The notes under the pieces: model-generated
The model's input: only the letters and a program-made list of their open reading frames with translations
What the model was told of the DNA's origin: nothing
The model's database searches: none
Position numbers and translations under genes: made by a program
Part shown: positions 42,111-46,393 of the stretch, piece by piece
How positions within the stretch are numbered: the first letter of the stretch is position 1
How the letters are laid out: each line of letters opens with the position of its first letter
NCBI RefSeq assembly: GCF_900109115.1
Contig: NZ_FNYV01000003.1
Span: 338,843 to 402,842, forward strand
Source of the DNA: Micromonospora phaseoli
Lineage (GTDB): Bacteria; Actinomycetota; Actinomycetes; Mycobacteriales; Micromonosporaceae
Length of the DNA: 64,000 bases
Direction: 5' to 3'

Positions 42111-44513
42111 TCAGATCTTCTCGATCGGAGCGTGCCGCAGGACCAGCCACAGCGTCTGGTCGCCGAAGTCGATCTGAGCCCGGGCGCCCGCGCCGTGCCC
42201 CTCCACCGCCACCACCCGGCCCAGCCCGTACCGCTGGTGGTTGATCCGGTCCCCGGCGGTGACCTTCGGCCCCTGCGGCAGCTCGCTCGCGGTGGCCAGC
42301 CGGCTGCCGTCCACGCCGAGCTTCCGCGCCAGCTGCACGGCCCTGGGGGTGCCACCGGCAAAGGAGCCACGGCCGTCGGAGACCCGCTCCGCGCGGCCAC
42401 CGACACCGCCGCCCCCGCCGCCCCACGAGGTGTACGACCCTTCGGTCCGCTCCCAGCGGACCAGCTCGGGCGGCAACTCCTCGACGAACCGCGACGGCGG
42501 GTTGTAGGACGGTTGTCCCCAGGCCGAGCGGGTCACCGCCCGGGAGAGGTAGAGCCGCTGACGGGCACGGGTGATGCCGACGTACGCCAGCCGGCGCTCC
42601 TCCTCCAGCTCCCGGGTGTCGCCCAGGGAGCGCAGGTGCGGGAAGACGCCGTCCTCCAGACCGGTCAGGAACACCACCGGGAACTCCAGGCCCTTGGCGG
42701 TGTGCAGGGTCATCAGGGTGACCACGCCCTGATGCTCGGGATCATCGGTGGGCACCTGGTCGGCGTCGGCGACGAGCGCGACCTGCTCCAGGAAGCCGGC
42801 CAGGGTGGCCCGTTCCCCCTCCGCGCCGGTCGCCTCGATCCGCTCGGTGTACTCGCGGGCGACGCTGACCAACTCCTGAAGGTTGTCGACCCGACCGGCG
42901 TCCTGCGGGTCGAGGCTCTCCTCCAGCTCGGTCAGGTAGCCCGAGCGGGTCAACACCGCCTCCAGGACGTCCTCCGGGGTGCCGCCGTCGGCCAGCTCAC
43001 GGGCGGCGTCGAGCAACGCGACGAAGTCGCCGATGCCGTTGGCCGCGCGGGTCGAGATGCCCGGCGCGTCCTTGGCCCGGCGCAGCGCGGCGCCGAAGGA
43101 GATGCGGTCCCGGCCGGCCAGCGCCTCCACACACGCCTCGGCGCGTTCGCCGATGCCCCGCCGTGGTGTGTTGAGGATCCGGCGGAGGCTCACCGTGTCG
43201 TCGTCGTTGACCACCGCCCGCAGGTAGGCCAACGCGTCCCGGACCTCCTTGCGCTCGTAGAAGCGCACCCCGCCGACGACCTTGTACGGCAGGCCGACCC
43301 GGATGAACACCTCCTCGAAGACGCGGGACTGGGCGTTGGTGCGGTAGAAGACCGCCACATCGCCCGGCCGGGTCTCTCCGGCGTCGACCAACCGGTCGAT
43401 CTCCCGGGCCACCCAGTCCGCCTCGGCGTGCTCGGTGTCGGCGACGTACGCGACGATCGGCTCACCCGTGCCGGCGTCGCTCCACAACCGCTTCGGTTTG
43501 CGGGACGTGTTGCGGTCGATCACCGCGTTCGCGGCGTTCAGAATGGTCTGGGTGGAGCGGTAGTTCTGCTCCAGCAGGATGGTGCGGGCGTCGGCGAAGT
43601 CGCGCTCGAACTCCAGGATGTTGCGGATCGTCGCGCCACGGAAGGCGTAGATCGACTGGTCCGCGTCGCCGACCACGCACAGCTCCGCCGGATCGAGACC
43701 CTCGGTGCCGGAGACCAACTCCTTGATCAGGACGTACTGGGCGTGGTTCGTGTCCTGGTACTCGTCGACCAGAACGTGCCGGAACCGACGGCGGTAGGTC
43801 TCCGCGACGTGCGGATGTGACTGGAACAGGTGCACCGTCGTCATGATGAGATCGTCGAAGTCGAGCGCGTGCGCCTCGCGCAACCGCCGCTGGTAGAGCG
43901 TGTACGCCTCGGACAGGGCGCGTTCGTTGGGCCCGCTGGCGCGGCCGGCGAAGGTCTCCGGGTCGACCAGCTCGTTCTTCAGATTGGAGACCTGAGCGGC
44001 CAGGCCACGCGCCGGGTAGCGCTTCGGATCCAGATCGAGCTCCCGGGTGACCAGCTGCATCAGCCGGCGCGAGTCGTCCGCGTCGTAGATCGAGAACGTG
44101 GACTTCAAACCGGCGTGCTCATGCTCGGCGCGCAGGATCCGCACACAGGCGGAGTGGAACGTGGAGACCCACATCAGCCGGGCGCGCGCGCCGACCAGGG
44201 CGGTCACCCGCTCCTTCATCTCGCCGGCGGCCTTGTTGGTGAAGGTGATCGCGATGATCTCACCGGGGTGCACGTCCCGCGCGGCGAGCAGGTACGCGAT
44301 CCGGTGGGTCAGCACCCGGGTCTTCCCGGACCCGGCACCGGCCACGATCAGCAACGGCGAGCCGGCGTGGGTGACCGCGTCCCGTTGCGGGCCGTTGAGT
44401 CCCTCCACCAGTTGCGCCGGGTCGAGGCGGCCGGGCACGGGCCGATGCGGCGGCCGCGCCTGGGCGGGCTCGGGCGCGGGCGGGGACGCGGGGATGTCGA
44501 AGAGAGGATGCAT
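42111..44513 (-). CDS. pcrA: ATP-dependent DNA helicase PcrA/UvrD
   Basis: An 800-residue superfamily 1A helicase. Motifs: Q-motif LNGPQRDAV, Walker A AGAGSGKT, Walker B DEYQDTN, GDADQSIYAFRGA, QNYRST, TLHTAKGLEFPVVF and YVGITRARQRLYLS. The C-terminus (KVTAGDRINHQRYGLGRVVAVEGHG) is the Tudor-like element that binds RNA polymerase in PcrA. It unwinds DNA 3'-5' in nucleotide excision repair, recombination control and transcription-coupled repair. Length is slightly above typical because of the Pro-rich N-terminus. A GGGCCC repeat lies just upstream of its start. Confidence 0.96.
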   Translation of the reverse strand: MHPLFDIPASPPAPEPAQARPPHRPVPGRLDPAQLVEGLNGPQRDAVTHAGSPLLIVAGAGSGKTRVLTHRIAYLLAARDVHPGEIIAITFTNKAAGEMKERVTALVGARARLMWVSTFHSACVRILRAEHEHAGLKSTFSIYDADDSRRLMQLVTRELDLDPKRYPARGLAAQVSNLKNELVDPETFAGRASGPNERALSEAYTLYQRRLREAHALDFDDLIMTTVHLFQSHPHVAETYRRRFRHVLVDEYQDTNHAQYVLIKELVSGTEGLDPAELCVVGDADQSIYAFRGATIRNILEFERDFADARTILLEQNYRSTQTILNAANAVIDRNTSRKPKRLWSDAGTGEPIVAYVADTEHAEADWVAREIDRLVDAGETRPGDVAVFYRTNAQSRVFEEVFIRVGLPYKVVGGVRFYERKEVRDALAYLRAVVNDDDTVSLRRILNTPRRGIGERAEACVEALAGRDRISFGAALRRAKDAPGISTRAANGIGDFVALLDAARELADGGTPEDVLEAVLTRSGYLTELEESLDPQDAGRVDNLQELVSVAREYTERIEATGAEGERATLAGFLEQVALVADADQVPTDDPEHQGVVTLMTLHTAKGLEFPVVFLTGLEDGVFPHLRSLGDTRELEEERRLAYVGITRARQRLYLSRAVTRSAWGQPSYNPPSRFVEELPPELVRWERTEGSYTSWGGGGGGVGGRAERVSDGRGSFAGGTPRAVQLARKLGVDGSRLATASELPQGPKVTAGDRINHQRYGLGRVVAVEGHGAGARAQIDFGDQTLWLVLRHAPIEKI

Positions 44514-44565
44514 CGCACGGCGAGTCTATGCCGCCGCCCCGACATCACCCGCCTCGGCTGCGGTG

Positions 44566-44620
44566 CAAGGAAGGGCCCCTTATTAACGCCTGGAGTAGAG
44601 CAGGGGCCCCTTCTTAACGG
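44566..44620. repeat. GGGCCC dyad repeat, two units
   Basis: AAGGAAGGGCCCC then TTATTAACGCC at 44566-44590, a TGGAGTAGAG spacer, and CAGGGGCCCCTTCTTAACGG to 44620. It lies between the divergent pcrA and the chorismate mutase leader, ending about 16 bp before the putative -35 box. Confidence 0.85.
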
Positions 44621-44635
44621 CTTTGACGGCTTTCC

Positions 44636-44672
44636 TTGCGCACCCCCCACAGCGGGCGGCATACTCGACGGC
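44636..44672 (+). promoter_or_regulatory. Putative promoter of the chorismate mutase leader
   Basis: TTGCGC (44636-44641) and CATACT (44660-44665) are 18 bp apart. Transcription would start about seven bases later, at or next to GTG 44673, which would make the leader peptide leaderless; there is no Shine-Dalgarno sequence before that GTG. Confidence 0.4.
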
Positions 44673-44738
44673 GTGTTCGATCAGCGCTTCTACTTTTACT
44701 ACGGCACCGGGAGTCCGGCAGCCGTAGGTCGCGCCTGA
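44673..44738 (+). CDS. Phe/Tyr-rich leader peptide before chorismate mutase
   Basis: A 21-codon ORF, GTG 44673 to TGA 44736-44738. Codons 6-10 read FYFYY and codon 2 is also Phe, so six of the first ten codons are Phe or Tyr, the end products of the pathway started by chorismate mutase. This is the classic design of an attenuation leader: ribosomes stall at these codons when charged tRNA-Phe or tRNA-Tyr is scarce. The mRNA folds described in the next entries support this reading. It has no Shine-Dalgarno and may be leaderless. It is too small and too far from the enzyme gene to be part of it. Confidence 0.8.
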   Translation: MFDQRFYFYYGTGSPAAVGRA

Positions 44739-44786
44739 TCGACTAGACCTGCGAAAAGCCCCGGGCTCCGAGGAGCCCGGGGCTTT
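44699..44786 (+). promoter_or_regulatory. Transcription attenuator controlling chorismate mutase
   Basis: Three competing pairings are visible. Protector hairpin: CTACGGC (44699-44705, over the last two Tyr codons) with GCCGTAG (44721-44727), and inner CCGG with CCGG. Antiterminator: GGAGTCCGG (44710-44718) with CCGGGCTCC (44761-44769), nine pairs including one G-U. Terminator: 44755-44769 with 44772-44786. A ribosome stalled on the Phe/Tyr codons would open the protector and free 44710-44718 to block the terminator. Without stalling the terminator forms. Confidence 0.78.
44755..44786 (+). terminator. Attenuator terminator
   Basis: AAAGCCCCGGGCTCC (44755-44769) and its exact complement (44772-44786) give a 15 bp stem with a minimal loop, ending in TTT and CGTCGTC. 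It lies between the leader peptide and the chorismate mutase start at 44839. Confidence 0.9.
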
Positions 44787-44838
44787 CGTCGTCCCGGGAT
44801 CCGGGCACTGGGCACCAGACCGTGAGAGGTACCCGAAG

Positions 44839-45222
44839 ATGACAGACGTGATGGAACAGAGCGGAGCCCCGGCTGGTTCCGGCGCGACCCCGAACGGCGC
44901 GGGCCGCGACGGCACGATCGCGGCCGGTCGTCCCGACGGCGACCCGGGCAGCCCTGTCACCGGCACCCAGCAGCCCGACGCCGCCGCCCGGATCGCCGAG
45001 ATCCGGGTACGGATCGACGAGATCGACCGGACGCTCATCGAGCTGTGGCAGGAGCGGGCCGCGCTGTCCCAGGAGGTCGGCACGGTCCGGATGGCCTCCG
45101 GCGGGACGCGGCTCGTGCTCTCCCGCGAGCAGGCGATCCTGGAGCGGTTCCGATCGGCCCTCGGCGCCGACGGCACGCAACTCGCGCTATTGCTGCTGCG
45201 GGCCGGCCGCGGCCCGCTCTGA
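44839..45222 (+). CDS. aroQ: Chorismate mutase, AroQ type
   Basis: A 127-residue enzyme that rearranges chorismate to prephenate, the branch step to Phe and Tyr. A 50-residue Gly/Ala/Pro-rich N-terminus has no family counterpart. The AroQ helical core follows: RIAEIRVRIDEIDRTLIELWQERAALSQEVGTVRMASG, then SREQAILERFRSALG. The key Arg in helix 1 (IRVRIDEID) and the downstream Arg of LWQERAALSQEVG are in place. A GAGAGG site precedes ATG 44839. It is downstream of the Phe/Tyr attenuator, which explains its control by end-product aminoacyl-tRNA. Confidence 0.9.
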   Translation: MTDVMEQSGAPAGSGATPNGAGRDGTIAAGRPDGDPGSPVTGTQQPDAAARIAEIRVRIDEIDRTLIELWQERAALSQEVGTVRMASGGTRLVLSREQAILERFRSALGADGTQLALLLLRAGRGPL

Positions 45223-45243
45223 GCGGTGACGGGTGACGACCTG

Positions 45244-45314
45244 CCGGTCCTCGTCCACCCGTCAGCCGAACGAGGACCGGGGCGCCGGCCGCTGTAACAG
45301 CCGACGCCCCGGTC
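45244..45314. terminator. Overlapping terminator hairpins
   Basis: Stem 1: CCGGTCCTCGT (45244-45254) with its complement at 45270-45280. Stem 2: GACCGGGGCG (45275-45284) with CGCCCCGGTC (45305-45314), with an inner GCTGT/ACAGC. They share 45275-45280, so only one forms at a time. They sit between convergent chorismate mutase and importer operon 2. Confidence 0.7.
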
Positions 45315-45382
45315 ACTGAGGAGGCACTACCTTCACCGTCGCTCCCGGTACGGATGGTCGGGCACGGACGGCGTCTGTGTGG

Positions 45383-46393
45383 CTACTCCGCCGCGTGCAC
45401 CACGTCGCGTACCTCGGCGAAGTGGCAGGCGCTCGGGTGGCCGGACTTGTCGCGGATCTGCAGGAGCGGCTCCTGCTCGGCGCAGATGTCCTGTGCCTTC
45501 CAGCAGCGGGTACGGAACCGGCAGCCCGACGGCGGGTTGGCCGGCGACGGGACGTCACCGGTCAGCACGATCTGGTCCCGGAGTCCCCGCAGCTTCGGGT
45601 CCGGCACCGGCACCGCGGACAGCAGCGCCTGGGTGTACGGGTGGGTCGGCTTGTCGTAGATGTCGTCCTCGGTGCCGATCTCGATGATCTTGCCGAGATA
45701 CATGACCGCGACGCGGTCGGCGATGTGCCGCACCACCGACAGGTCGTGGGCGATGAAGACGTACGACAGGCCCAGCTCCTTCTGGAGCTTCTCGAGCAGG
45801 TTGATCACCTGTGCCTGGATGGAGACGTCCAGCGCCGAGACCGGCTCGTCACACAGGATGATCTCCGGGTTGAGCGCCAGCGCCCGGGCGATGCCGATCC
45901 GCTGCCGCTGCCCGCCGGAGAACTGGTGCGGGTACCGGTTGATGTGCTCCGGGTTGAGGCCGACCAGCTCCAGCAGCTCCTGCACCTTGCCCCGCCGGCC
46001 GCTCTTCGGCACCACGTCCGGGTGCACCTCGAACGGCTCGCCGATGATGTCACCGACGGTCATCCGCGGGTTGAGCGAGGTGTAGGGATCCTGCATCACC
46101 AGCTGGATGTTGCGCCGGCCCCGCCGCCGCTCCTCCGCGCTGACCTTGGACATGTTCTTGCCCTGCACGAACAGGTCACCGGAGGTCGGCGTCTCCAGCC
46201 CGACCAACATCCGGGCCAGCGTGGACTTGCCGCAGCCGGACTCGCCCACGATGCCGAGCGTCTCGCCCCGGCGCAGCTGCAGGTTGACCCCGTCGACAGC
46301 CTGGACCGCACCGTACTGCTTCTTGAAGACGATGCCCTTGGTCAGCGGGAAGTGCTTGACCAGGTCTCGGGTCTCCAGCACCACGTCACTCAT
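45383..46393 (-). CDS. Peptide ABC importer ATPase, DppF/OppF type, operon 2
   Basis: A 336-residue ATPase, last gene of the second peptide importer operon. Motifs: Walker [10 protein letters not shown], signature FSGGQRQRI, Walker B IILCDEPVSALDVS, H-loop AHDLSVV, C-terminal CRFRTRCWKAQDIC. The segment [20 protein letters not shown] closely matches its operon-1 counterpart. It overlaps the upstream ATPase gene by eight bases. Confidence 0.94.
   Translation of the reverse strand: MSDVVLETRDLVKHFPLTKGIVFKKQYGAVQAVDGVNLQLRRGETLGIVGESGCGKSTLARMLVGLETPTSGDLFVQGKNMSKVSAEERRRGRRNIQLVMQDPYTSLNPRMTVGDIIGEPFEVHPDVVPKSGRRGKVQELLELVGLNPEHINRYPHQFSGGQRQRIGIARALALNPEIILCDEPVSALDVSIQAQVINLLEKLQKELGLSYVFIAHDLSVVRHIADRVAVMYLGKIIEIGTEDDIYDKPTHPYTQALLSAVPVPDPKLRGLRDQIVLTGDVPSPANPPSGCRFRTRCWKAQDICAEQEPLLQIRDKSGHPSACHFAEVRDVVHAAE

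Follow-up and report, generated by a model that had tools for sequence, protein, structure and literature searches.

Within the window, a stretch of 64,000 nucleotides from the soil bacterium Micromonospora phaseoli, a short leader peptide open reading frame (ORF) precedes aroQ, a gene for a chorismate mutase of type II. The nearest solved structures to its product are 5hub, which we take to be the chorismate mutase of C. glutamicum, and Rv0948c (2qbv). Chorismate mutase stands at the branch point that splits phenylalanine and tyrosine from tryptophan. Leader and aroQ share a strand, and 100 nt separate the leader stop from the aroQ start. The upstream neighbor (42111 to 44513, minus strand) encodes a UvrD/PcrA-type helicase, and the 3' neighbor of aroQ, which faces it, encodes an oligopeptide ABC transporter; both assignments were confirmed with Pfam. 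Since the helicase gene is divergent, the terminator at 44755 to 44786 belongs to the leader-aroQ unit and is not explained by any upstream gene. The features of this unit are the following.

44636 to 44641, plus strand: candidate -35 element TTGCGC, assigned from sequence, 18 nt before the -10 element
44660 to 44665, plus strand: -10 element CATACT, 6-7 nt before the leader start codon
44673 to 44738, plus strand: leader peptide ORF of 21 codons, GTG at 44673 to TGA, probably leaderless and kept in 85 of 85 loci
44688 to 44702, plus strand: regulatory codons Phe-Tyr-Phe-Tyr-Tyr (FYFYY, codons 6-10)
44699 to 44727, plus strand: protector hairpin H1, CUACGGC (44699-44705) with GCCGUAG (44721-44727)
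44710 to 44769, plus strand: outer antiterminator helix H3, GGAGUCCGG (44710-44718) with CCGGGCUCC (44761-44769), nine pairs, one of them U-G
44723 to 44753, plus strand: inner antiterminator helix H2, CGUAGGUC (44723-44730) with GACCUGCG (44746-44753), from unconstrained masked folds
44755 to 44786, plus strand: intrinsic terminator H4, 14 pairs (44755-44768 with 44773-44786), loop CGAG, followed by a short U tract
44824 to 44829, plus strand: GAGAGG, candidate Shine-Dalgarno sequence of aroQ, from sequence only
44839 to 45222, plus strand: aroQ, chorismate mutase type II, 127 amino acids (Pfam CM_2, PF01817, E 3.8e-10)

The leader ORF is translated conceptually as VFDQRFYFYYGTGSPAAVGRA. A preliminary description of this DNA had suggested a promoter placing the transcript start at the leader GTG, and the arrangement recurs among relatives: of 85 Micromonosporaceae loci, 81 have a -10 box 6-7 nt ahead of the leader start codon according to a script, and the other four (L004, L066, L070 and L075) have a GTG at the same place by eye. 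The sequence TTGCG lies 15-27 nt ahead of the -10 box in 59 of the 83 loci with such a box. Inspection of the sequence before the window's leader ORF reveals no Shine-Dalgarno sequence, and the retained spacing of the -10 box suggests leaderless translation. The leader of C. glutamicum aroR is reported to be leaderless by Neshat et al. in 2014; E. coli pheL has an ordinary ribosome binding site and an RNA sequence that is not known to be related to that of the aroQ leader. A consensus scan of the window listed neither a promoter nor a terminator at the leader, probably because T makes up only about four of the eight bases that follow the G-C core and because the promoter does not have the strict sigma-70 form.

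The preliminary description had proposed a 21-codon ORF with FYFYY at codons 6-10, together with a protector hairpin, an antiterminator of nine pairs and a terminator of 15 bp. All are present in the sequence, with two amendments. The terminator has 14 usable pairs rather than 15, because a fifteenth would leave a two-base loop, and the antiterminator, correctly described as far as H3 goes, includes a second helix, H2, that had been overlooked and that is nested inside H3. The protector hairpin has an inner part as well, in which CCGG at 44707-44710 pairs with 44715-44718. Relative to dinucleotide shuffles, the fold of the 128-nt leader is 5.5 SD lower in energy; most of this comes from the terminator, given that the z score is -1.4 without the terminator 3' arm. 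The window has a single short ORF with an aromatic run and a strong hairpin within the next 70 nt, and 15 first-order Markov resamplings of the window have none. An outer stem from the minimum free energy (MFE) fold, H0 (44680-44687 with 44731-44741), was also considered as an evolved feature. Its mean energy is -17.0 kcal/mol vs -11.7 kcal/mol for shuffled sequences; H0 was dropped, since partners swapped between loci pair nearly equally well (-16.6 kcal/mol) and its cross-family permutation p is 0.94.

AroQ is found in 198 of 200 Micromonosporaceae genomes. The 85 upstream loci inspected comprise 15 named matches, the window and 69 of the 198, the latter being the top 29 by score, not counting the window's own, and 40 hand-picked, mostly one per genus; a sixteenth named match, from Eubacterium, was left out. 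Some of the 85 are the same genome in two collections, such that 80 leaders are distinct. A leader with a recognizable tail is present at all 85. The tail pattern YG[TS]GSPAAVGRA is exact in 59 of the 85, and in the M. phaseoli genome it is exact at one place, with eight further places at three mismatches, fewer than the reversed-pattern controls gave. Seven of 70 loci have two adjacent aromatic codons instead of three, most with a further Tyr nearby. H3 is paired in 95.3% and H2 in 92.1% of cells, and both together in 25-49% when slid.

The ribosome-mediated attenuation proposed in the preliminary description is supported by these comparisons, in that aromatic codons and stems are kept at all 85 loci and the arms co-evolve across families; had close relatives lost either of them, this would have spoken against it, and no such loss was seen among the 85. 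Compensatory changes within Micromonosporaceae were found for the protector and the terminator. One pair of H1 changes from C-G to U-A in four of 80 leaders, and the outermost pair of H4 is changed on both sides in 17 of the 80, both by RNAalifold. Within the family, the covariation score of H2 and H3 equals the shuffled mean, with one pair showing a double change, as variation there is too low.

To look beyond the family, a covariance model (R1) was built from the 80 Micromonosporaceae aroQ leaders, blind to the downstream gene. With E 0.01 as the limit, R1 matches 162 of 200 genomes in the order and 92 of 246 in the class, where many weak matches span only the terminator part. A set of 67 loci was inspected; 27 came from outside the genus in the class search, and 40 were chosen from the order list (three from the same family). 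AroQ is encoded downstream on the same strand at 60 of these, a DAHP synthase at three and neither at four. The 60 span 14 families beyond Micromonosporaceae, direct inspection adds three, and the element is seen in 18 actinobacterial families. The tails differ between families; the F/Y run, the YG and the hairpin are shared. Ten R1 matches without AroQ or DAHP synthase downstream (L140, L141, L142, L177, L219, L225, L227, L228, L230 and L231) were rejected as true leaders and look like chance matches to GC-rich terminators or coding DNA.

A direct search found AroQ in 25 of 30 chosen genomes, and 23 loci were then inspected. Nine have a leader of the F/Y-YG type, including three of seven in f8, with f3 and f32 as further families and a doubtful case in f26 (L197); these family labels are codes of the search tool. 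No leader is visible at 13 of the 23, eight of them matching this AroQ type weakly. The other four f8 aroQ loci, from two genera (L186, L187, L189 and L191), have no aromatic leader in the 450 nt upstream, which suggests loss of the leader. About 200 nt upstream of the AroQ match of L192 is an FCFF frame without the YG core, perhaps a divergent leader. In f32, the AroQ leaders of L195 and L196 end FYGDRARSPL, and their loop is able to pair with a CCCGGUC segment that precedes the predicted terminator; the arrangement may be a rewired variant. At about position 1500-1640 of L121, the leader has two aromatic stretches (AYFYGTGFFYEKSP), suggestive of a partial duplication or insertion of the leader.

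The variation between families allows for a permutation analysis of co-evolution. Of 149 leaders, 148 were used, with L197 left out for want of an anchor, in 19 groups that represent 18 families, one of them split in two (f1b). Forty-six leaders were subsampled, and partner arms were permuted between groups 20,000 times, with the terminator arms set by a hairpin finder; a few leaders anchored at the wrong YG-like place (L145 and L121 among them) and the split family add noise. Cognate arms pair better than permuted ones for H1 (z -6.1, with no permutation as low), H4 (z -9.0), H3 (z -4.0, p 0.0001) and H2 (z -2.7, p 0.0035). Among the six non-cognate controls, five give p values above 0.05: protector arm with pre-terminator, 0.58; tail with terminator arm, 0.59; protector arm with terminator arm, 0.53; leader start with terminator arm, 0.48; and leader start with pre-terminator, 0.08. 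The sixth, loop with pre-terminator, gives 0.045, and the pre-terminator segment in these controls includes four terminator-arm bases. Double changes in H3 can be read directly, as GGACUCCGG:CCGGAGUCC in 10 of 11 f15 leaders vs GGAGUCCGG:CCGGGCUCC in the window, and as CGGCCC(G):(C)GGGCCG in at least 14 of 19 f33 leaders. H3 is short or unclear in the small groups f1b, f3, f8, f9 and f10. At least three of the last four codons up to the Tyr of the YG core are F or Y in 119 of the 148 leaders. Both Phe and Tyr occur within the last eight codons of all 148, for Tyr partly by choice of anchor, and Trp occurs there in two.

R1 also matches leaders of type I DAHP synthase genes, at the three loci among the 67 and at 13 of 20 further loci that were chosen by hand and are mostly weak R1 matches; of the remaining seven, one is AroQ and six are neither. 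The 16 loci, from other actinobacterial families, are L139, L143, L165, L213-L218, L220-L224, L226 and L232. Three of these DAHP synthases were checked by Pfam (DAHP_synth_1 with a ferredoxin-like domain), and the rest were assigned by similarity to the L139 and L165 proteins. Trp is found in the seven-codon run of 14 of the 16 leaders, for instance TAWSFWY, RNFWRFY and QARWFFY. Masked folds, compared by eye, look like those of aroQ leaders in having an inner helix and, outside it, a second one that pairs with the terminator arm. To judge by the sequences, the codons follow the pathway: the trunk enzyme would be read out with Trp, Phe and Tyr, and the enzyme of the Phe/Tyr branch with Phe and Tyr. 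We lean toward a single ancestral leaderless attenuator that spread through the actinobacteria, with codons retuned to the position in the pathway and the two-helix antiterminator kept. In the M. phaseoli genome, no YG leader lies in about 500 nt upstream of either its one type II DAHP synthase gene or its prephenate dehydratase gene. An FLWSPY frame before the former was rejected as a leader, as it overlaps the start of the gene itself and leaves no room for a terminator.

The switching of the leader was modeled by MFE folds at growing 3' ends, with 5' bases masked to mimic a stalled ribosome. In the whole unmasked leader, H1 forms and neither H2 nor H3 does, and the terminator appears from 44778 on. 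With the mask ending at 44700, 44703 or 44706, H2 and then H3 (nine of nine pairs) form by 44770 and are the optimum until 44778-44780. A mask at 44712, with Tyr10 in the A site, allows for only six pairs of H3, which are lost once the terminator 3' arm appears, and a ribosome placed at the stop codon leaves the terminator alone free. Once the full-length RNA is available, the terminator wins in each of the masked folds, at about -44 to -55 kcal/mol; the antiterminator reaches -31 kcal/mol before the terminator 3' arm and at best about -39 kcal/mol, with added pairs, at 44780. Therefore, antitermination must be kinetic. Roughly 10 nt of RNA lie inside the polymerase, and the state predicted up to 44778-44780 would correspond to the RNA exposed as polymerase passes the release site.

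The leader thus combines a codon run for the end products, a terminator by structure, and a protector and antiterminator that are mutually exclusive according to predicted folds and co-evolution. Based on its sequence and the modeled folds, it is highly probable that the element acts as a ribosome-mediated attenuator of chorismate mutase transcription, with charged tRNA-Phe and tRNA-Tyr as the signals, and aroQ is very probably switched on only when Phe or Tyr is short. We infer that the leader is translated and that stalling, termination and read-through respond to Phe and Tyr as follows. Transcription would start at the GTG or within a base or two of it, such that the leader would be translated without a 5' UTR. 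When Phe and Tyr are plentiful, the ribosome would reach the stop codon, covering the protector 3' arm and the pre-terminator segment, or it would leave and the protector would refold; in either case the terminator would form and transcription would halt before aroQ. When Phe or Tyr is short, the ribosome would stall on codons 6-10 and cover the protector 5' arm. The freed segment 44710-44730 would then zip with 44746-44769, H2 before H3, and H3 would capture the terminator 5' arm so that RNA polymerase reads through into aroQ.

The conservation of the tail could instead reflect an arrest peptide. The tail YGTGSPAAVGRA itself would then halt the ribosome, perhaps with an aromatic metabolite bound, and the supply of codons would play a secondary part. 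Within Micromonosporaceae the peptide sequence of the tail is highly conserved, given the 59 exact matches among 85, but its codons are constrained as well. Over 78 distinct sets, the commonest synonymous codon has a mean share of 0.91 for the ten conserved tail codons vs 0.76 for 43 conserved aroQ codons (p 0.0016). Moreover, the only GTG at the conserved place in L066 opens a frame other than that of the tail, encoding FYF and then different residues, one extra base shifts the tail frame in L127, and the tail of L117 ends prematurely. The RNA plan is nonetheless largely preserved in all three, which serve as natural experiments separating peptide from RNA. Other families carry unrelated tails (GCHGRAA, APVIA, VPVSG) on the same RNA plan. 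The synonymous constraint and the natural frameshifts argue that selection acts on the RNA and the aromatic codons, as it appears to from these sequences, rather than on the tail peptide. By this comparative evidence the tail peptide does not appear to be required, and an arrest peptide is very improbable.

Control of aroQ translation by the leader, through coupling or by sequestering the ribosome site, rather than of termination, would fit a leader ORF ahead of aroQ on the same strand. It is rendered even less probable by the 100-nt gap, by the 14-pair terminator that lies within it and by the position of the candidate ribosome site (44824-44829) outside the described helices. That the terminator scan made no call at the locus might favor a constitutive terminator beside an unrelated small protein gene, an idea more doubtful still, as the element is paired with aroQ, and elsewhere with DAHP synthase, across families and as the antiterminator arms co-evolve. 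The least probable reading is that the conserved, structured 5' region before an amino acid pathway gene is a T-box or metabolite riboswitch, given its conserved coding frame with an aromatic run and given that no riboswitch or T-box of Rfam matches. The Rfam search gave two sub-threshold matches in 43500-46000 of the window and one in seven relatives, none to a riboswitch or T-box; the match to F6 sRNA, below the gathering score, was set aside as the terminator read on the opposite strand.

As a mechanism, ribosome-mediated attenuation of the kind favored here is classical; the actinobacterial aroQ class was found neither in Rfam nor in the parts of the literature consulted. The closest precedent is aroR of C. 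glutamicum, known by its description, in which a Phe-Tyr-Phe leader precedes the DAHP synthase gene aroF (PMC11802643, PMC4046766) and for which Phe limitation, but not Tyr limitation, is described as mattering (PMC11802643). The two are alike in phylum, in the Phe-Tyr-Phe run and in control of an aromatic pathway gene, and unlike in that the leader described here precedes chorismate mutase. Given aroR, an actinobacterial Phe/Tyr leader is not in itself new. In E. coli, pheL-pheA is controlled by leader peptide attenuation through charged tRNA-Phe (PMC11802643), and its target also has chorismate mutase activity; unlike aroQ, pheA encodes a fused chorismate mutase-prephenate dehydratase, and Phe is sensed. 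Attenuators of trp, leu, ilv and aminoacyl-tRNA synthetase genes in the same phylum, several of them leaderless, serve other amino acids or genes (PMC1262725, PMC8079986). In the excerpts available, the 2005 actinobacterial survey (PMC1262725) describes the upstream regions of phenylalanine and tyrosine operons as showing no conserved RNA structures, and none of the eight attenuators of S. lividans in PMC8079986 is for Phe or Tyr. Two predicted uORFs with F and Y before shikimate genes appear in Fig. 6b of PMC6429828, a survey of five genomes; they resemble the present leader in containing both Phe and Tyr, the genomes named in the excerpt are not actinobacteria, and an overlap with aroQ leaders is possible. 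The preliminary description knew of no attenuator for chorismate mutase that senses Phe and Tyr together, and for actinobacteria none was found in the literature as excerpted; control of chorismate mutase by such a leader may therefore be new there, and the Phe/Tyr leader as such has its precedent in aroR.

Chorismate mutase of this type is controlled in C. glutamicum at the enzyme level via a partner DAHP synthase, according to the text of PMC11802643. An attenuator seen in 18 families would add a gene-level loop to this control and would offer a handle for producers of natural products derived from aromatic amino acids. In turn, the F/Y leaders of chorismate mutase vs the mostly W/F/Y leaders of DAHP synthase provide a clean test of attenuator retuning in evolution.

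Upstream of the promoter, at 44569-44619 of the window, there is also a tandem pair of near-identical copies of the motif GGGCCCCTT(A/C)TTAACG.
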